DNA of 64,000 nucleotides, taken from the NCBI GenBank assembly GCA_022843125.1, contig JALHOG010000010.1, positions 1 to 64,000 of the forward strand, written 5' to 3'. The position numbers and the translations under genes are program-made. Positions 32,374 through 41,014 of the stretch are shown piece after piece. The stretch comes from Ilumatobacteraceae bacterium (GTDB lineage: Bacteria > Actinomycetota > Acidimicrobiia > Acidimicrobiales > Ilumatobacteraceae). The first letter of the stretch is position 1. The number at the start of each line of letters is the position of its first letter. The notes under the pieces were generated by a model, which was not told where the DNA came from, did no database searches, and was given only the letters and a program-made list of their open reading frames with translations.

Positions 32374-33318
32374 TCAGTCGCGGGGCGGGACGCTCTGGGC
32401 GAATGCGCGATCGACGTCGGCCGTGGTGAGCGGGAAGTCGTCGTTGCCGACGATCTCCGCATCGGGGATCGTGGCACCCCGCCGATAGTTGTGCGACTCG
32501 TCGAAGCGGGCCGCGAACTTCGTGAAGAAGAGGTAGATCACGATCGACCATAGGAAGACACCGCCACCCGTCTTCATCACCGCACCTGCGAGCTGTTGGT
32601 CGCTCGTGACACCGATGCCCCACAGGCGCACGGGCGTGTCGTACGCCTTGTAGACGACGCCCTCGGCGAAGGTGAGCCACGCCGCCGGGATCGTGGGGAC
32701 CACCGACTGGAGGAAGAGGTAGATCATCCCGCCGCCGATGCCCATCCGGAACTCGGGGACCGGCCCGCAGATCGGCATCCACATCAGCAGCGACGACGTG
32801 ACGGCCAGCACGTGCAGGAGGTAGTGCAGAGCGCCGTTCTGCACCGACTCGTTGACGAGCATCGGGATGTGCAGGATCATCACCGTCGCATTGAAGATCA
32901 CGCCGGCGATGACCGGCTTCGCGAACCAGCGAACCGTGTGGAACAGCGCACCGTCACCGAGCAACACCCGGGCCAACCACATCGGGGTCGCCATCAGGGC
33001 CAGCGGCGGCAGGAAGTAGCTCAGCATCATGTGCTGGAGCATGTGTGCGGAGTAGAGGTACTCCTCGCTCACATCGTGCATCGGCCAGTCGGAGGCGACC
33101 CACAGCATGAGGATGGCCCCGACGAAGCACCCGATGTGACGGCGGGTGACCACCGGTTGACCGGCCGGCACGGCCTTCGGCCCGATCACGCGGACCATGT
33201 AGATGTACGCCGCCGTGAGGAAGCCGACGAGCAACCAGACCTCGGGATGCCACTGGAACGCGAGCGGATCCACGAGGAGGTCGGCGGCGAGTGTGCTGAG
33301 GTGGGGGGTGTGCGCCAT
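32374..33318 (-). CDS. ctaG: CtaG-type (caa3) cytochrome c oxidase assembly membrane protein
   Basis: 314 residues with about seven membrane helices. The family core is clear: DWPMHDVSEEYLYSAHMLQH followed by MMLSYFLPPLALMATP, a His-rich region, and later LHYLLHVLAVTSSLLMW. In Bacillus-type systems CtaG is needed for the CuB centre of caa3 oxidase. An AAAGG ribosome site precedes the ATG. It is the last cox gene of the block, 12 bases after coxIV. Confidence 0.88.
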   Translation of the reverse strand: MAHTPHLSTLAADLLVDPLAFQWHPEVWLLVGFLTAAYIYMVRVIGPKAVPAGQPVVTRRHIGCFVGAILMLWVASDWPMHDVSEEYLYSAHMLQHMMLSYFLPPLALMATPMWLARVLLGDGALFHTVRWFAKPVIAGVIFNATVMILHIPMLVNESVQNGALHYLLHVLAVTSSLLMWMPICGPVPEFRMGIGGGMIYLFLQSVVPTIPAAWLTFAEGVVYKAYDTPVRLWGIGVTSDQQLAGAVMKTGGGVFLWSIVIYLFFTKFAARFDESHNYRRGATIPDAEIVGNDDFPLTTADVDRAFAQSVPPRD

Positions 33319-33330
33319 GAGGCGCCTTTC

Positions 33331-33669
33331 TCAGGCGTCGAAGAAGCGGAACGTCAACAGTGCGATGAAGTAGACGACGATGGCCAGGATCAGCCCCATG
33401 TAGAACATGATGCTGAAGAGACGGTTGTCGAACTTGAGGTGCATGAAGAACAGCACCACGGCCATGAACTTCACGACCATCAGCAGCAGGAGCACCGGGA
33501 TGAACAGCGGGCCCCAGAAGCCGATCGTGTAGCTCATCGCGATCTCGAGCGCCGTCACCAAGGCGAGCGCGATCGCGAGCTTGATGTAGCTGAGGTCGCT
33601 CCAGTGCTCCTCGTGCGCGTCGTCGTGAGCGGCGTCGGAGTGGGTTGCGGGCTGGGTGTCGGTCGCCAT
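33331..33669 (-). CDS. ctaF: Cytochrome c oxidase subunit IV (caa3/CtaF type)
   Basis: 112 residues: a His/Asp-rich N-terminal tail (HSDAAHDDAHEEHW), then three helices, with FFMHLKFDN between the second and third, which is typical of prokaryotic COX4. It is a small stabilising subunit of the oxidase. A GAGAGG-like ribosome site lies upstream of the ATG. It sits between subunit III and ctaG. Confidence 0.87.
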   Translation of the reverse strand: MATDTQPATHSDAAHDDAHEEHWSDLSYIKLAIALALVTALEIAMSYTIGFWGPLFIPVLLLLMVVKFMAVVLFFMHLKFDNRLFSIMFYMGLILAIVVYFIALLTFRFFDA

Positions 33670-33684
33670 GACGAACCTCTCGGA

Positions 33685-34308
33685 TCAGGCCGGGATCAGG
33701 TAGACGAGCGTGAAGATCAGGATCCACACGATGTCGACGAAGTGCCAGTAGAGGCCCACCATCTCGACGAGCTCGCTCTTGTCCTCGCCGGTGCGCCGCT
33801 TCATGAGGATGCCGACGACCGACAGGAGCATGATCACCCCGACCGTGACGTGAACACCGTGAAAGCCGGTCAGCGTGTAGAAGCTCGAGGAGAACAGGCT
33901 GGTGGTGAAGCCGAGGCCCTCTCGGTAGAAGACCGTGAACTCGTAGATCTGGCCGGCGACGAACAACGCGCCGAGCATCGCCGTGACGGTGAGCCACAGC
34001 GACGTGTTGCGGTCATCTCGGCGCTTGGCCGCGGTCACGGCGAGCACCATCGTGAGCGATGACATCAGCAGCACGAAGCTCGACGCCGACGTGAAGGGGA
34101 TGTCCCAGAGCTGGTCGGGGCCGAGGTTCTCGGAGTGACGGCCGCGATACAGCATGTAGGTCGAGATGAGGCCGCCGAACAGCAGGCACTCCGAACCGAG
34201 GAAGAGCCACATCGCCAACTTGTTGTTCGACAGGCCGGTCGTGGTGTGGTGGGTTCCGTGATCATCGTGACCGTGATCGGTCGCGGCGTGGACGGCAGTG
34301 TCAGCCAT
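33685..34308 (-). CDS. ctaE: Cytochrome c oxidase subunit III
   Basis: 207 residues, five helices as in actinobacterial/caa3 subunit III. The N-terminal tail is His-rich (DHGHDDHGTHHTT). Conserved motifs are LAMWLFLGSECLLFGGL (with the conserved Glu) and TGFHGVHVTVG. It overlaps the end of subunit I by 8 bases (34301-34308), implying translational coupling. Confidence 0.93.
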   Translation of the reverse strand: MADTAVHAATDHGHDDHGTHHTTTGLSNNKLAMWLFLGSECLLFGGLISTYMLYRGRHSENLGPDQLWDIPFTSASSFVLLMSSLTMVLAVTAAKRRDDRNTSLWLTVTAMLGALFVAGQIYEFTVFYREGLGFTTSLFSSSFYTLTGFHGVHVTVGVIMLLSVVGILMKRRTGEDKSELVEMVGLYWHFVDIVWILIFTLVYLIPA

Positions 34309-36301
34309 GAGCGACCTCCAGTTCGGCTCCGCCCTCGGGTGTGGGCGGGTCGTAGTCGTCGGGGGTGGCCGTCGCCGGCTCGAGACCCCAGCCGTACATC
34401 GCCGCCATGACGATCGCCCCGCCGACGACGATGAGCCAGATGTTGTAGATGACGCCGTACGCCATCACCGGCAGACCGAAGGCCAGCACGATCGGCCAGT
34501 ACGACGGCGACGGCAGGTGGATGTGCTTGTCGGCATTCGCCTCCTGCTCGGCGAGGACGTCCTCCGCGGTGGCGACCTGGTGGTACTCGTGGTGTTCGCC
34601 TTCCCCGCGGTCTTCGTACTTGCGGTGGAAGAACTCGTCGAGGTGGTGGACGGTGGGGATCGCGTCGAAGTTGTGCTCCTTCGGCGGGCTCGCCGTCATC
34701 CACTCGAGCGAGCGGGCGTCCCACGGATCGAGCGGCGCCGGCCCGTTCTTGCGATGCGAGTAGAACACGTTGATGACGAAGAGGAACGCACCGATGCCGA
34801 GGATCAGCGAGCCGATCGAGGCCACGAGGTTCCAGAAGTTCAGGTTGAAGAACCCTTCGCCGGCGCGGGCGTCGGTGGTCTGGTACATGCGGCGCGGCTG
34901 GCCCTGGAGGCCGATGATGTGCATCGGTCCGAAGGTCAGGTTCATGCCGATGATCATCAGCCAGAAGTTCCACTTGCCGAGGGTCTCGTTCAGCAGCTTG
35001 CCGAACATCTTCGGCCACCAGTAGTAGAGGCCGGAGAAGATGCCGAGCACCGCCCCACCGAACAGCACGTAGTGGAAGTGGGCGACGATGTAGTACGTGT
35101 CGGTCTGCTGTGTGTCGGACGGAGCAACGGCGTGCGTGACGCCCGACAGACCGCCGATGGTGAACTGCACGATCAGACCGATCGCGAACAGCATCGCCGT
35201 GGTGAAGACCAGCTTGCCGCCCCACATGGTCATGATCCAGTTCACGATCTTGACGCCGGTGGGGATCGCGATCGCCATCGTGGCGACGGAGAACACCGCC
35301 ACCGAGATCGGCCCGAGGCCTGAGGCGAACATGTGGTGGGCCCACACACCCCAGCCGACGAAGCCGATCGCGGCGCCGGAGAACACCACCAGCGGGTAGC
35401 CGAAGAGCGGCTTCTTCGAGAAGACCGGGAGCACCTCGGACACGATGCCGAACGAGGGCAGGATCAGGATGTAGACCTCGGGGTGACCGAAGATCCAGAA
35501 CAGGTGCTGCCAGAGCAGCGGGTCGGCGCCGGCCTCGACACTGAAGAACGTGGCGTCGAAGTTGCGCTGGAACATCAGCAGGAACAGCGCCACCGTGATG
35601 ACCGGGATCGCGAACAGCAGCAGGAACTGCACGATCAGGATCATCCACGTGAAGATCGGCATCTTCATCAGACTCATGCCGGGAGCCCGCATGTTGATCA
35701 CGGTGACGATCAGGTTGATCGCGCCGGTCAGCGAGGCGATGCCGGTGATCTGGAGACCGAGCGTCCAGAAGTCGATTCCGCTGGTGGGCGAGAACGGCAC
35801 CGACGAGTTCGGGGCGTACATGAACCAACCGCCGTCGGCGGCACCGCCGAGGAACCACGACGTGTTGATGAAGATCGCACCGAAGAGGAAGCACCAGAAG
35901 CCGAACGCGTTGATGCGCGGGAATGCAACGTCACGAGCGCCGATCTGCAGGGGCACGAAGTAGTTCGCGAACGCAGCCGCCATCGGCATCACGAAGAGGA
36001 ACACCATCGTGGTGGCGTGCATCGTGAACATCTGGTTGTACTTGTCGGCCGAGAGGATCGTCCCCTCATTGGTGGCGAGCTGGGCGCGGATGAGCAGCGC
36101 CTCGAAGCCACCGAGGAAGAAGAAGAAGATCGCGGTGACGCCGTACATGATGCCGAGCTTCTTGTGGTCGATCGTGAACAGCCACGATTTCCACCCCTTG
36201 GTCTCGACGGGACGCCGGAACACGCCGTACGACGACGACGGCGTGACGACGGCCGGCACGAGGCCGCCGTCGCGGGTTGCGGGACGTTCGATCAGCGCCA
36301 T
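34301..36301 (-). CDS. ctaD: Cytochrome c oxidase subunit I (aa3, type A1)
   Basis: 666 residues, about 12 core helices plus a long C-terminal cytoplasmic tail. All metal ligands are present: helix II FTMHATTMVF (heme a), helix VI FGHPEVYIL (CuB His and cross-linked Tyr; the Glu marks a type A1 enzyme with a D-channel), helix VII WAHHMF (two CuB His) and helix X AHFHYVLFGG (heme a3 and a). It reduces oxygen to water and pumps protons. It follows subunit II by 7 bases. It is the functional counterpart of the ligand-free homologue at 39335-41014. Confidence 0.97.
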   Translation of the reverse strand: MALIERPATRDGGLVPAVVTPSSSYGVFRRPVETKGWKSWLFTIDHKKLGIMYGVTAIFFFFLGGFEALLIRAQLATNEGTILSADKYNQMFTMHATTMVFLFVMPMAAAFANYFVPLQIGARDVAFPRINAFGFWCFLFGAIFINTSWFLGGAADGGWFMYAPNSSVPFSPTSGIDFWTLGLQITGIASLTGAINLIVTVINMRAPGMSLMKMPIFTWMILIVQFLLLFAIPVITVALFLLMFQRNFDATFFSVEAGADPLLWQHLFWIFGHPEVYILILPSFGIVSEVLPVFSKKPLFGYPLVVFSGAAIGFVGWGVWAHHMFASGLGPISVAVFSVATMAIAIPTGVKIVNWIMTMWGGKLVFTTAMLFAIGLIVQFTIGGLSGVTHAVAPSDTQQTDTYYIVAHFHYVLFGGAVLGIFSGLYYWWPKMFGKLLNETLGKWNFWLMIIGMNLTFGPMHIIGLQGQPRRMYQTTDARAGEGFFNLNFWNLVASIGSLILGIGAFLFVINVFYSHRKNGPAPLDPWDARSLEWMTASPPKEHNFDAIPTVHHLDEFFHRKYEDRGEGEHHEYHQVATAEDVLAEQEANADKHIHLPSPSYWPIVLAFGLPVMAYGVIYNIWLIVVGGAIVMAAMYGWGLEPATATPDDYDPPTPEGGAELEVAHG

Positions 36302-36308
36302 GCGATCA

Positions 36309-37553
36309 TCACTTCCGTTCCAACAGATAGGCGACCAGCTCGTTGATCTGGTCTTCCGACAGTCCGAGGTTGGGCATGCCGCGCACCTTGCCGTCGGTCT
36401 CCAGCAATGCGGTGGCGTCGGCGTACATCGGCTTCTTGGCGGGCGCGTCTCGCAGCCATTCCTTGAGGTCGATCTCGTTGAGGCATTCCGGCGTGACGCC
36501 CTTCAGGTAGGCCGCGCCGAAGTCTTCCGGGCTGGCGTTCCAGACCTCGTCGCGACAGGCCGGCGTGAGGAGGTCCCACGACGCTCCGGCGAAGGTGTTG
36601 CGCGTCATGAAGTTGGTGAGGTTCGGGGCAGCGCCCGAGTACACCCACTGGTCGGGGGCCGACACGATCGGATCGCCGTTGCCGTCGACGAGACCGTCGA
36701 CCTGGTGGCAGCGGGCGCACTGGGAGACATAGGTGACCTCACCGGCCGCGGCGAGCGTGCCCGCCTCGGGCGACTGGTACGGCTCGAGCTGGTTGTCGAG
36801 CCAGGCCTGGAAGTCGTCGGGGTCGAGCGCGATCATCTCCATGCGCATGTTGGCGTGGCTGAGGCCGCAGAACTCGGTGCACTGGCCGGCGTAGATGCCC
36901 GGACCGTCGGCGTGGAAGCGCCACGTGTGGACACGACCCGGCACCATGTCGCGCTTGCCGTTGAGCTTCGGGATCCAGAACGAGTGGATCACGTCACGGC
37001 TGGTTCCACGGATCAGCACCTTGGTGTCGGTCGGGATGATGACCTGGCCGCTGGTGATGAGCGGAACTGCCGCAGCGTTCGACGGGGTGTAGCCACAGAT
37101 CGAGCCGTCGGCGGCGACCGGGTAGTCGTACTCCCACCACCACTGCTGACCGGTGACGTTGATGACGCACTCGGTGTCCTGGGTTTCGGCGAGGTCGAAG
37201 ATGGTGTTGACCGTGAACCCGGCGATCACGGCGAGGATCGCTGCGGGGAGCGCGATGAACGTGTACTCGATGATCGGGTTGCCGTGCGACTGCTCCGGGA
37301 TCGGCTGGCCGCGATCCTTGAACTTGATGACGGCGTACAGCACGACCGCCATCACGATCACGCCGACGATGCCTGCGACGAGGAAGATCGGCCACTGGAG
37401 GTTGTGGATCGTCTGGGCGTTCTCGCCCTCTGGTGCCCACGTGTCCTGCGGGGCGTCCTGCGCGCATGCGGAGATCGCGAGCGCGCCGGCGCCCAGGAGG
37501 GCGAGGCGGGCTGCGTGGGCGAGGCGCCGGGGGGTGGAGGGTCGCTCAGACAT
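36309..37553 (-). CDS. ctaC: Cytochrome c oxidase subunit II fused to cytochrome c
   Basis: 414 residues from the ATG at 37553. N-terminal lipoprotein-type signal (ALAISAC), two membrane helices, then a cupredoxin domain with GQQWWWEYDYP (aromatic patch) and the CuA site GQCTEFCGLSHANMRMEM (C-x3-C-x3-H and Met). A C-terminal cytochrome c domain holds CARCHQ, with a later Met in VRGMPNLGLS. The fusion classifies this as a caa3-type oxidase, taking electrons through its own heme c. The unusual membrane protein (37601) lies directly upstream. Confidence 0.95.
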   Translation of the reverse strand: MSERPSTPRRLAHAARLALLGAGALAISACAQDAPQDTWAPEGENAQTIHNLQWPIFLVAGIVGVIVMAVVLYAVIKFKDRGQPIPEQSHGNPIIEYTFIALPAAILAVIAGFTVNTIFDLAETQDTECVINVTGQQWWWEYDYPVAADGSICGYTPSNAAAVPLITSGQVIIPTDTKVLIRGTSRDVIHSFWIPKLNGKRDMVPGRVHTWRFHADGPGIYAGQCTEFCGLSHANMRMEMIALDPDDFQAWLDNQLEPYQSPEAGTLAAAGEVTYVSQCARCHQVDGLVDGNGDPIVSAPDQWVYSGAAPNLTNFMTRNTFAGASWDLLTPACRDEVWNASPEDFGAAYLKGVTPECLNEIDLKEWLRDAPAKKPMYADATALLETDGKVRGMPNLGLSEDQINELVAYLLERK

Positions 37554-37600: not shown

Positions 37601-38740
37601 TCACGGGACGACCACTTCGAGCGTGGCATCCGTGCCGGGCACGGCGAACTCGTAGCCCTCGTCGGTGGCGAAGCTCGGCAGGTCGAAGATCAGGGTGAGG
37701 AACTGGACGCCACCCTCCTTGGCGAGGGCGGTGCAGATCTGCTCGGGGCCGACGGGCTGGCCGTTGTCGTCGAGACGGGGGTTCATGCCGATCACGAGCC
37801 GCGCCTCGCCGCCCGACTCGTTGCGGAACATCACATTGTTCGGGTTCGAGCGGGGCAGGGTGAGCGGTGCGGCGCCTTCGACCGTGGGGACGAAGCCCGG
37901 TGCGGTCCAGGTGAGGGTGGTGCCGTCGAAGATGACCTCGGCGGCGACGTTCGACTTGCCGGCCACCGTCTGGCTGGCCTTCTCGTCGGCCGACACCTCT
38001 TCGGCGCCGCACTCGCCACGAGCCGCGTAGTACGCCGTGGTCTTGTGCACCTCGATCTCACGTTCGCCGTTGACCCCGGCGACCGTGCCGCCGGCGATCA
38101 GGGCCACCGTGGCGAGGCCGAACGTCCCGGTGAGCGCCGTCTTGGAAGCGCCCCGCTTGACCCCGACGACCGCTCCGATGGCGAGCACGAGGGCAGAGAC
38201 GATCGAGAACCCGATCACGGTCGACGACTTCGACGGCAGGCCGAGCATCACCCGGCTGAACGAGTAGGCCACGATCCCGAACACGATCGCGGCAGCGATC
38301 GGGATCTCGAGCGGATCGATGAGGAAGTTCCGGGCGTGGCTGTTGTAGCCACGCTCGGCGGACGCCCGCTCACTCCACCCCTGCACGAGCCACTCGAGGG
38401 CGCCGGCGGTGACGATGATCGCTCCGAGGATGAACAGGGCCGGGAGCGATGCGAGCCCGAGCGCCATCGCCGTCGCGCCGACGGCGATCAGCAACGGCCA
38501 GAGGCTGGGGGTGGCGCTCGCCTGGGCGGCAGCCGAGCTCTCGAACGCGTCGGTGTCCATCGCCGAGACGTTGGCGTCGCGGCCGTACGTGCTGATCCCG
38601 GCGAGCAGCGCCAGTCCGGCAGCTGCCGAGATGAGGCCGATCGTGCCGAGGGCGCCGCCGTTCGCCACGCCATAGATGAGGGCGAGCAACCCGGCCGCGA
38701 CGGCGGATCCGACGAGGAGTTTCGAACCGGTGGTGATCAT
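37601..38740 (-). CDS. Unknown membrane protein, six helices plus possible cupredoxin-like domain
   Basis: 379 residues. The first 245 or so form about six helices (for example LFILGAIIVTAGALEWLVQG and FGIVAYSFSRVML). The C-terminal 130 residues are beta-rich and extracytoplasmic: VIFDGTTLTWTAPGFVPT, then LPRSNPNNVMFRNESGGEARL and a terminal EFAVPGTDATLEVVVP. This outline resembles a cupredoxin, but no Cys-His-Met copper set is visible; the few cysteines (ECGAEE and QICTAL) are not in a copper motif. It sits between a ligand-free subunit III/I pair and functional subunit II, so it may be the subunit II- or IV-like part of that complex (inference). I do not know a named family. Confidence 0.6.
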   Translation of the reverse strand: MITTGSKLLVGSAVAAGLLALIYGVANGGALGTIGLISAAAGLALLAGISTYGRDANVSAMDTDAFESSAAAQASATPSLWPLLIAVGATAMALGLASLPALFILGAIIVTAGALEWLVQGWSERASAERGYNSHARNFLIDPLEIPIAAAIVFGIVAYSFSRVMLGLPSKSSTVIGFSIVSALVLAIGAVVGVKRGASKTALTGTFGLATVALIAGGTVAGVNGEREIEVHKTTAYYAARGECGAEEVSADEKASQTVAGKSNVAAEVIFDGTTLTWTAPGFVPTVEGAAPLTLPRSNPNNVMFRNESGGEARLVIGMNPRLDDNGQPVGPEQICTALAKEGGVQFLTLIFDLPSFATDEGYEFAVPGTDATLEVVVP

Positions 38741-38753
38741 CGTGCTGGTGCGC

Positions 38754-39338
38754 TCACTTGGTGACGTAGACGAGGAACCACACCGCGCTGTAGGCAGCGG
38801 CGATGAAGTACCAGTACAGGGCGTGGGCGGACAGGACCTCGACCTCGCCGAGGCGGCCGCCGAGGGCTCGGAACGAGGCGACGACGGTGTAGACGAGTCC
38901 GGCGGCGACGAGTGCGGTCATCGTGCCGGTCACGGCATAGAACAGCGGCCCGTAGTAGTCGGCGGCGATCGGGACACCCATCGTGTACCAGACGAACGCC
39001 TGACCGTTGATGAAGGCGATCGCGAGCAGGCCGACGATCCCGAGGGCCAGCGCCGTGTGCGCCCGGTCGTCACGCTTGCCGGAGTACACCGCCCACTGGG
39101 CGAACACGCACAGCGACCACAGGGTCATCAGCATCACGTTCGACGCGACCTCGGTGATGATGTAGTCGACCGGGAAACGACCCTCCGGGTTGGCGTCGAG
39201 GAAGCGCTCACGCAGGAGCGCGAACACGGCGAGCATGCCGCCGATGAGCATGGTGCCGGCGACGCACGCGAGCGCCGTGCCGACCAGCAGCTGGCGACGG
39301 GGCGCCGGCGGCGCAGCAGCGGGCAGTGCCATCGTCAC
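38754..39338 (-). CDS. Degenerate heme-copper oxidase subunit III-like protein
   Basis: 194 residues with five helices in the same pattern as subunit III (33685-34308). In the first helix the SECLLFGG segment of the true subunit is replaced by VAGTMLIGG, losing the conserved Glu, and the FHGVHV motif of the later helix is absent (YAVTGTMTALV). The C-terminal region ALYWYFIAAAYSAVWFLVYV corresponds to the final subunit III helix. Its ATG overlaps the stop of the ligand-free subunit I gene by 4 bases, so the two are expressed together. It probably acts with that protein rather than the catalytic oxidase. Confidence 0.72.
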   Translation of the reverse strand: MTMALPAAAPPAPRRQLLVGTALACVAGTMLIGGMLAVFALLRERFLDANPEGRFPVDYIITEVASNVMLMTLWSLCVFAQWAVYSGKRDDRAHTALALGIVGLLAIAFINGQAFVWYTMGVPIAADYYGPLFYAVTGTMTALVAAGLVYTVVASFRALGGRLGEVEVLSAHALYWYFIAAAYSAVWFLVYVTK

Positions 39339-41014
39339 GACCGGCTCCCTTCATGGGTCATGTCGAACACCGGCGTGGCGGACGCCACCGTCGGGACGTG
39401 CTCGAAGTTCGAGGCGGGGGCCGGCGACGGCCTGCTCCACTCGATGGTGTGGCCACCGAACGGGTTGTCGGCCGCACGGGCGCCGGCACCGACGAACGTC
39501 TTCATCATGAGGCCGACGAACGCCAGCACGGCGACGAGCATCAGGATGCTGCCGATCATCGACAGCACGTTCCAGAGCGAGGCGCTCCCTGCGTAGTCGA
39601 GCGACAGGACCGTTTCGAGATCGGGATCGCTCGCCGGGATGCCGCCTGCCTGACCGAGGAAGCCGGCGATGTAGAGCGGCAGCGACGCGAGGACCGTGCC
39701 GCCCAGCGCCAGCAGGACGAGCGGCAGCACGAGCTTCTCGGGGAGGGTGCGACCCCACAGCTTGGGCGCCCAGAACGCGATACCACCCATGACGCCCATC
39801 GCAGCGCCGTAGACGACGTACAGCACGGCACCTTCCTCCATTGCTGTCCCGGCGATCTCGAGGTCGGCGATGCCCATCAAGAAGGTGCCGACGACACCGA
39901 CGAACACCATCCCCATCCCGAGGAAGGAGAACAGGAACGCAGCCGTGATCTGCGGGCGGCCGTGAGCCATGCCGGACTTGGCGGTGAGACCACCGAGACC
40001 CATCACCATCAGCAGGCCGAGCACCGGAACGCCGACCAGCGTCAGGAAGGGCAGCAGATCGCCGAGGAACGCGCCGAAGGTCTGATCGCTGTCGAGGCTG
40101 ACCATCGTGGCGATGTTGTCGGGCGACGTGACGAACGACTGCGTCGTGACGGCGGCGAACGCAGCGAACCCGACGAAGGCGATCCCGGTGAAGAGGACCC
40201 CACGGAGCGGCTGGCGGGCCTTGAACGTGACCGGCATCAGTTCGGCGGCGACGCCGACGGCCGGGATCGCGAACACGATGACCATCGGAACCGAGAAGAT
40301 CCAGCCGATCCACGGGCCGATGCCCTCGGCGCCACCGAAGTTCAACTGGGTGCCCAGGCGATGATCGATGAATACGTAGATGATCGCCCCGAACGCGACG
40401 GGCAGCGCCACCACGGCGCCGATCGCGCTGACGAGCGCCGACCACGAGAACAGGGGAACACGCCACATGGTCATGCCGGGCGCACGGGTGGTGAGCACCG
40501 TCACCGCGACCGATCCGGCCGACGCCAGCAGACCGAGGATCATGAGGCCGTGCCCGGCGAGGAACAGGTCGACGGCGTCGGGCGTGCCGCCACCGACGCC
40601 CCCGTTGCGACCGAGCGCCGTGAACGTCAGCACCAGGCCGCCGAGCCACGCGTAGCAACCCGTGAGCGCCAGGCGCGGGAAGGCGATCTGGCGGGCACCC
40701 AGCTGGAGGGGGACGACGGCGATCGCGAGCCCGAGCGCCAGCGGGATGACACCGGCGAAGACCAGAGAGACCCGCTGGGCTTGGAACAGCTGGACCAGCG
40801 TGTCGCGCTGGAGCGCGGCGGACTCGGCGGCACGTTCGAGACCCAGCAGGGCGCTGATGACGGTCGCTCCGAGCAGGCCGAGCAGGCCGAACCCCAGGTA
40901 GATCCGGCCGATCTTCTTGTGATCGGCGGTCGTCGCCCAAGAGGCCAGACCGGCGAAGAACGACGCCACGACCGATTCACCGGCTGCGTCTGCGTGGGTT
41001 TCGATCGTCGTCAT
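39335..41014 (-). CDS. Heme-copper oxidase subunit I-like protein lacking all metal ligands
   Basis: 559 residues, about 12 helices, clearly related to subunit I: TTADHKKIGRIYLG, VVPLQLGARQIAFPRL and TTRAPGMTMWRVPLF line up gap-free with the true subunit (34301-36301). Yet every metal or heme ligand is changed: helix II His is Gln80; helix VI H-P-E-V-Y is V242-P-M-V-I246; helix VII His-His is Ala288-Val289; helix X H-F-H is G395-A-V397. Substitution, not deletion, indicates an intact, selected protein with no heme a, a3 or CuB. It begins the long cox block. Its role is unknown: perhaps an assembly or supercomplex scaffold, or ion conduction. True Cox I is excluded by the missing ligands. Confidence 0.85.
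   Translation of the reverse strand: MTTIETHADAAGESVVASFFAGLASWATTADHKKIGRIYLGFGLLGLLGATVISALLGLERAAESAALQRDTLVQLFQAQRVSLVFAGVIPLALGLAIAVVPLQLGARQIAFPRLALTGCYAWLGGLVLTFTALGRNGGVGGGTPDAVDLFLAGHGLMILGLLASAGSVAVTVLTTRAPGMTMWRVPLFSWSALVSAIGAVVALPVAFGAIIYVFIDHRLGTQLNFGGAEGIGPWIGWIFSVPMVIVFAIPAVGVAAELMPVTFKARQPLRGVLFTGIAFVGFAAFAAVTTQSFVTSPDNIATMVSLDSDQTFGAFLGDLLPFLTLVGVPVLGLLMVMGLGGLTAKSGMAHGRPQITAAFLFSFLGMGMVFVGVVGTFLMGIADLEIAGTAMEEGAVLYVVYGAAMGVMGGIAFWAPKLWGRTLPEKLVLPLVLLALGGTVLASLPLYIAGFLGQAGGIPASDPDLETVLSLDYAGSASLWNVLSMIGSILMLVAVLAFVGLMMKTFVGAGARAADNPFGGHTIEWSRPSPAPASNFEHVPTVASATPVFDMTHEGSRS

Follow-up and report, generated by a model that had tools for sequence, protein, structure and literature searches.

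We found that the genome of an Ilumatobacteraceae bacterium encodes, beside a complete caa3-type oxidase, a homologue of heme-copper oxidase subunit I that, on alignment, lacks every metal ligand. This gene and two neighbours are maintained by purifying selection, with a constraint weaker than that on the intact subunit I gene coxA. The three products, designated I', III', and IV', appear to form a redox-free copy of the CtaD/CtaE/CtaF core, and we give an even chance to the reading that this copy serves the neighbouring oxidase or supercomplex as a structural or docking partner. The window, meaning the whole stretch of DNA that was analysed, comprises 64,000 nucleotides (contig JALHOG010000010.1). 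The relevant genes run along its minus strand in the order I'-III'-IV'-coxB-coxA-coxC, followed by COX4_pro and CtaG, and are given here with the evidence used to assign each.

39335..41014, minus strand: I', 559 aa, putatively metal-free homologue of heme-copper oxidase subunit I (open frame from ATG, Pfam COX1, ligand alignment)
38754..39338, minus strand: III', subunit III (CtaE)-like, 194 aa, GTG start, GTGA overlap with I' (Pfam COX3, NCBIfam, PDB)
37601..38740, minus strand: IV', 379 aa, CtaF-like half joined to a membrane-cupredoxin half that lacks copper ligands (PF12270, family profile)
36309..37553, minus strand: coxB, active oxidase subunit II, with a CuA motif and a cytochrome c at the C-terminus (domain searches)
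34301..36301, minus strand: coxA, active oxidase subunit I, intact, with a CtaF-like domain at the C-terminus (Pfam, ligand alignment)
33685..34308, minus strand: coxC, subunit III, active oxidase (Pfam and NCBIfam)
33331..33669, minus strand: COX4_pro, small subunit IV (Pfam PF03626, E = 4e-8; stop codon placed by arithmetic)
32374..33318, minus strand: CtaG-type assembly factor (Pfam PF09678, E = 5e-38; stop codon placed by arithmetic)

The intact frame described for I' in the original prediction was confirmed, as it is open over 41014..39335 from the ATG and encodes 559 aa; the overlap with the next gene, first given as ATGA, is in fact GTGA. The Pfam COX1 profile (PF00115) matched I' residues 34-490 along profile positions 1-435 (E = 2e-35), a match that spans the 12-helix domain and marks I' as a family member by descent. 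The solved structures related to it are subunits I of oxidases (best E = 6.5e-33).

To locate the former metal sites, 74 I' sequences (the window's included) were aligned with 72 other subunit I rows, all selected from fetched sequences; the CoxA proteins of loci L035-L113 stand outside the latter set. Its sole deviating "active" row (L160) was a cut copy of the L154 I', leaving 71 genuine active rows. Two copies of the window (L003 and L004), L034 (equal to L027), the cut L117 (303 aa), and the fragment L085 had been dropped before arriving at the 74, and 280 residues were trimmed from the start of the L152 I'. Ligand and channel positions follow what we take to be the bacterial (R. sphaeroides) numbering. 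The residue numbers below come from the alignment, and the DNA positions were derived from them.

40775..40777, minus strand: codon of Q80, the former helix II heme a histidine (H102)
40277..40291, minus strand: codons of V242-I246 (VPMVI), the former HPEVY with a CuB histidine
40139..40144, minus strand: codons of T291-Q292, the former CuB His-His
39821..39829, minus strand: codons of A396-L398, in place of the HFH that held the heme a3 and heme a histidines

Every metal ligand had been predicted to be replaced, and the alignment bears this out at all six positions (Q80, V242, T291, Q292, A396, and L398). The low-spin heme a site lacks its bis-histidine pair (H102 to Q80, H421 to L398), the high-spin heme a3 site lacks its histidine (H419 to A396), and none of the three CuB histidines remains (H284 to V242, H333/H334 to T291/Q292). 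Among the individual residues named at the outset, Q80 and VPMVI at 242-246 were correct; the Ala-Val at 288-289 was off by three, the right pair being T291/Q292, and the helix X G-A-V at 395-397 was off by one, since the HFH counterpart lies at 396-398. The intact subunit I of the same window proved a sound comparison, with all six ligands present in coxA. It was further noted that the heme-propionate arginine pair is likewise absent from the window I', that Y288 is replaced by I246, and that the channel positions are altered throughout (D132 to Q109, N139 to A116, E286 to M244, T359 to L334, and K362 to V337). The protein has eight histidines (7, 32, 155, 218, 351, 522, 539, and 554), none of which occupies a ligand position.

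These losses extend across the relatives. The complete six-ligand set was found in 0/74 I' sequences, as was any case of more than one CuB histidine, and H334 was retained in a single sequence (1/74). The A-type proton-pump residues D132, N139, E286, T359, and K362 were retained in 0, 0, 4, 4, and 0 of the 74, respectively. A histidine occurred within five residues of some ligand position in 40/74 and of no ligand position in the other 34/74. Glutamine was new at the former CuB sites, at position 284 in 38/74 and at position 333 in 55/74. No description of a ligand-free subunit I was encountered in the titles and abstract openings among the literature matches listed. Nitric oxide reductases and the dismutase are subunit I relatives with an altered active-site metal or ligands that keep the heme ligands, whereas the window I' keeps none.

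The partner genes were characterized by profile searches. III' exceeded the Pfam COX3 cut-off (PF00510; E = 1e-5, 26.0 bits against 23.8), matched the PDB subunit III (E = 6e-5), and matched NCBIfam aa3_CtaE_Actin at a score below that family's cut-off (E = 5e-10). The first half of IV' resembles CtaF, and a CtaF-like domain is also the C-terminal domain of coxA. Its match to PF12270 (E = 0.003, 18.2 bits) lay below the cut-off of 26.9, and the IV' family profile matched solved chains named cytochrome c oxidase polypeptide 4 (E = 8e-4 and 0.0035). The second half of IV' resembles the membrane-cupredoxin protein of caa3 operons in other families and classes; in the window, the His, Cys, His, and Met ligands of a type-1 copper site are absent from it. 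This cupredoxin-like tail without ligands persists in the IV' proteins of the window's family, and IV' proteins from the rest of the order mostly end in a short, polar tail (by eye). Comparison of the ligand-free tail with copper-keeping tails gave a modest match in a single profile comparison (67 aligned columns, probability 87%, E = 4e-6). One more COX1 gene of another type is present in the same genome near cytochrome b genes, with HP, HH, and HFH motifs (by eye). Predicted promoter and terminator signals were no commoner than in shuffled sequence.

The module is widespread within the order of the window and was encountered there alone. In the family sample, I' (at least 39% identity) was found in 34/37 genomes; the misses were G007 (1.3 Mb), G012, whose contig ends within IV' beside coxB, and G029, which had no subunit I match. 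The IV' profile gave 72 strong matches (E < 1e-45) among 295 class genomes, all in the window's order (72/111 order genomes against 0/184 others of the class sample), of which 23/24 were in the window's family and 49/87 elsewhere in the order. The figures 111, 72, and 39 (the order genomes with no strong match) are hand counts from two listings assumed to cover the same 295 genomes, which share totals and labels. A phylum sample of 296 genomes gave 18 strong matches, again within the order only. A pattern scan of genome contigs with I' recovered at least 80 loci, one of which (L034) has a degenerate I'. Since 39/111 order genomes lack a strong IV' match and all seven of those examined (one subunit I gene each) carry another oxidase type, the module is dispensable within the order.

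Gene order was conserved as I'-III'-IV'-coxB-coxA in 42/44 fetched stretches of sufficient length, the window included (a hand count that leaves aside L124, L139, and L164, which end too early). At L155, about 5 kb of other genes separate IV' from coxB, and by eye these include ABC genes for metal uptake and one for a repeat protein resembling sialidase (L155:5089-9565, minus strand). At L119, IV' is cut to 144 aa and the contig continues into unrelated genes; that genome has a listed contamination of 6% and a coxA of another kind on another contig. In two of the basal operons that keep heme ligands, a gene for a TlpA-like thioredoxin separates IV' from coxB (L127:5555-6100, minus strand, by Pfam; L128:6091-6729, plus strand, by eye).

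We assessed selection by the Nei-Gojobori method, using I' pairs with dS of 0.21-0.94 and leaving the pair L152/L153 uncounted. The dN/dS ratio was 0.10-0.24 for I' (seven usable pairs of relatives), 0.11-0.15 for III' (three pairs), and 0.07-0.17 for IV' (four pairs), compared to 0.04-0.11 for coxA (four pairs) and 0.09-0.25 for coxB (two pairs). It is because of these values that the three genes are held to be under selection and less constrained than coxA. The intact frame and the ratios in seven pairs also show that I' is no pseudogene. Together with the ligand set in 0/74 and the gene order in 42/44, they sustain the initial description of a non-catalytic, conserved paralogue rather than a decayed gene. 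Sequencing error was rejected along with pseudogene status, given intact frames in relatives across the order and dN/dS far below 1. Apparent stops inside I' in four genomes (G080, G227, G180, and G277) were each the gene's own terminal stop, with frames open in L143, L144, L159, and L148. I' has diverged at roughly three times the rate of coxA (mean distances 1.39 vs 0.42), which would fit a loosely bound partner and weak constraint equally well.

The ancestry of I' was examined in two trees, in both of which it formed one clade: a tree of 128 rows (59 I'), which omits 15 I' rows and several active rows that were near copies or cut, and a tree of 50 rows (28/74 I' and 22/72 others) with ligand and channel columns removed, in which support was 100/100. 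The root was placed by us on the active side, whose sequences include other classes. Branching from that side are L155, then L127-L130, then L124, then L118, and then the rest. Histidines for both hemes, without those of CuB, remain in the I' proteins of L127-L130 and L124; in those of L155 and L118 only the heme a pair remains, and the pair is gone in 67/74 I'. Relatives with histidine at the ligand sites, named at the outset as what would refute the reading, were thus found for the hemes in the basal I', and none kept the CuB set. On the 50-row tree, parsimony explained CuB and the heme a pair with a single change each and heme a3 with two. The type-1 copper (C-H-M) motif was present in 6/46 IV' frames uncut by a contig or stretch end and in 0/40 of those remaining; the six loci (L124, L127-L130, and L155) are all among the seven with an I' heme a pair.

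Because basal I' branches still hold heme ligands, the metals were apparently lost in the order CuB, then heme a3, then heme a. The I' copy would have arisen once and would have lost CuB first, after which O2 reduction could no longer take place. The early form may have resembled an electron-carrying unit with a type-1 copper domain, heme a, and heme a3, and the lineage toward the window would then have shed heme a3, heme a, and the copper site. O2 reduction is accordingly unlikely for the whole I' clade given the loss of CuB, and electron transfer is unlikely for the window form given the loss of its hemes.

There are 29 residues that are near-invariant in active subunit I and kept in I', of which 21 fall in the two terminal segments (N and C) and in segments II-III, IV-V, and X-XI, presumably the cytoplasmic side by the topology we assume. 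Positions 255-414 contribute none of the 29 and have no position conserved at 85%. The conserved remainder of I' would therefore consist mainly of cytoplasmic loops. We favour the structural or docking role because I', III', and IV' copy CtaD, CtaE, and CtaF, because most of the kept residues are presumably cytoplasmic, and because CtaE and CtaF contact complex III2. In M. smegmatis, the main contacts to complex III2 are made through CtaE and CtaF (PMC8361435). The remaining redox-free membrane complex would bind the neighbouring oxidase through the cytoplasmic face retained by I' or, as an alternative within the same proposal, would stand in for an oxidase on a complex III-IV supercomplex. 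We infer that I', III', and IV' form one complex, that this complex touches the oxidase, and that its role is structural. A distance-matrix (mirror-tree) analysis with coxA as background, for which 31/40 loci had all seven genes, was set aside as evidence of complex membership: the signal was weak and unspecific (I'-III' r = 0.24, I'-IV' r = 0.22, and about 0 for both III'-coxB and III'-coxC), with the control pair IV'-CtaG as high (0.28).

A scaffold is favoured here over an assembly role for I'. It is doubtful, though still worth weighing, that I' is a biogenesis factor, namely a dummy subunit I that holds III', CtaF-like proteins, or copper or heme delivery proteins during assembly and is absent from the finished complex. 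In the window, the genes do precede coxB within a single gene run that includes CtaG, and both the basal forms with heme and copper ligands and the TlpA-like thioredoxin gene of L127 (in L128 by eye) would fit cofactor handling. However, the fetched caa3 operons of other families and classes (L184-L198) have CtaG and a transmembrane cupredoxin with no I' in the stretch, the metal-free form would be incapable of carrying cofactors, and a three-subunit copy exceeds the needs of known assembly factors, which to our knowledge require less than such a whole copy.

Other functions for I' appear less probable again. A new membrane task independent of the oxidase, such as ion or small-molecule transport, is unlikely: the fast divergence of residues 255-414 and the glutamines at the former CuB sites speak for it, but that same region has no position conserved at 85%, the canonical D and K channel residues are absent, and I' is tied to the oxidase operon. 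A canonical proton channel in I' was rejected, and with it the early suggestion of a proton carrier by canonical routes, since D132, N139, and K362 are kept in 0/74 and E286 in 4/74. We regard as highly improbable that a cofactor is still bound through unrelated residues and that the complex is redox active. Basal members do retain heme and type-1 copper ligands, and 40/74 have a histidine near a ligand position, yet 34/74 have none, the window's eight histidines are all distant, and the heme-propionate arginines and the IV' copper ligands are gone as well. That the three genes are relics being lost is scarcely credible; stepwise site loss and divergence faster than that of coxA would agree with it, but all usable pairs of I', III', and IV' gave dN/dS far under 1 and the frames are intact in relatives across the order.

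Comparison with known systems places the structural or docking reading in context. The M. smegmatis III2IV2 supercomplex (6hwh) has the same subunit set, CtaD/CtaE/CtaF, as I'/III'/IV'; its chains are among the closest solved ones to I', which matched its subunit I (E = 1.7e-32), while III' matched its subunit III weakly (E = 0.014), and the IV' profile matched CtaF (E = 0.0035). I' differs from that oxidase in having no ligands for heme or copper and no proton-channel residues, and the module differs in having no subunit II of its own and in the extra cupredoxin half of IV'. The window's own coxBAC (aa3/caa3, with cytochrome c on subunit II) shares the operon, homologous subunits I and III, and a CtaF-like domain with the module, whereas its coxA has all ligands intact and is 31% identical to I'. 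The membrane blue-copper proteins beside the caa3 operons of L184-L198 are homologous, in their transmembrane hairpin and cupredoxin, to the second half of IV', but they are mostly stand-alone proteins with type-1 copper ligands and the window IV' is without them. In most of these operons of other families and classes, the blue-copper gene follows CtaG, and its product may donate electrons or carry copper.

Inspection by eye suggests that other orders of the class have a second family of ligand-free subunits I, which are CcoN-like. One member is fused to a copper-keeping membrane cupredoxin upstream of coxB (L187:4593-6719, minus strand). Its first 480 residues had relatives in 92/295 class genomes (E <= 1e-10), none of which belongs to the window's order; ligands were viewed in 12 aligned loci, and other copies in the 92 may include ordinary CcoN. 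The 12 loci (query included) showed no histidine at what we take to be the CcoN ligand motifs, as read by eye in an alignment without intact CcoN. The family was met at L187, L202-L212, and L213-L224, and some copies are fused to or lie beside FixO-like heme c proteins. At L219, the gene lies beside FixO-like and other c-type cytochromes and runs divergently to a bc-complex operon with genes for ferredoxin, cytochrome b, Rieske protein, and cytochrome c. By eye, c-type cytochromes and cytochrome b C-half proteins of L214-L222 (L219:4059-6003, minus strand) begin with a repeated PE.L..RSA.A.A motif, which is alike across several subunits of one locus.

The CcoN-like counterpart near bc-complex genes suggests that dead oxidase subunits I may serve as architectural parts more than once. 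We tentatively propose, as a possibility that falls short of an even chance, a fuller picture in which I' belongs to the metal-free half of a mixed oxidase (IV-IV') or III-IV supercomplex, kept across much of the order after stepwise metal loss, with the C-family CcoN-like proteins as a parallel case of such architectural use. Heme-copper oxidases are defined by their metals, and a subunit I kept by selection without them separates the fold from the chemistry. The surviving intermediates show one order in which a respiratory enzyme may be emptied. Annotation by family name alone would count genes of this type as oxidases. If I' sits in the oxidase or supercomplex, respiratory complexes would gain a subunit of a new kind, on which ideas about why supercomplexes form could be tested.
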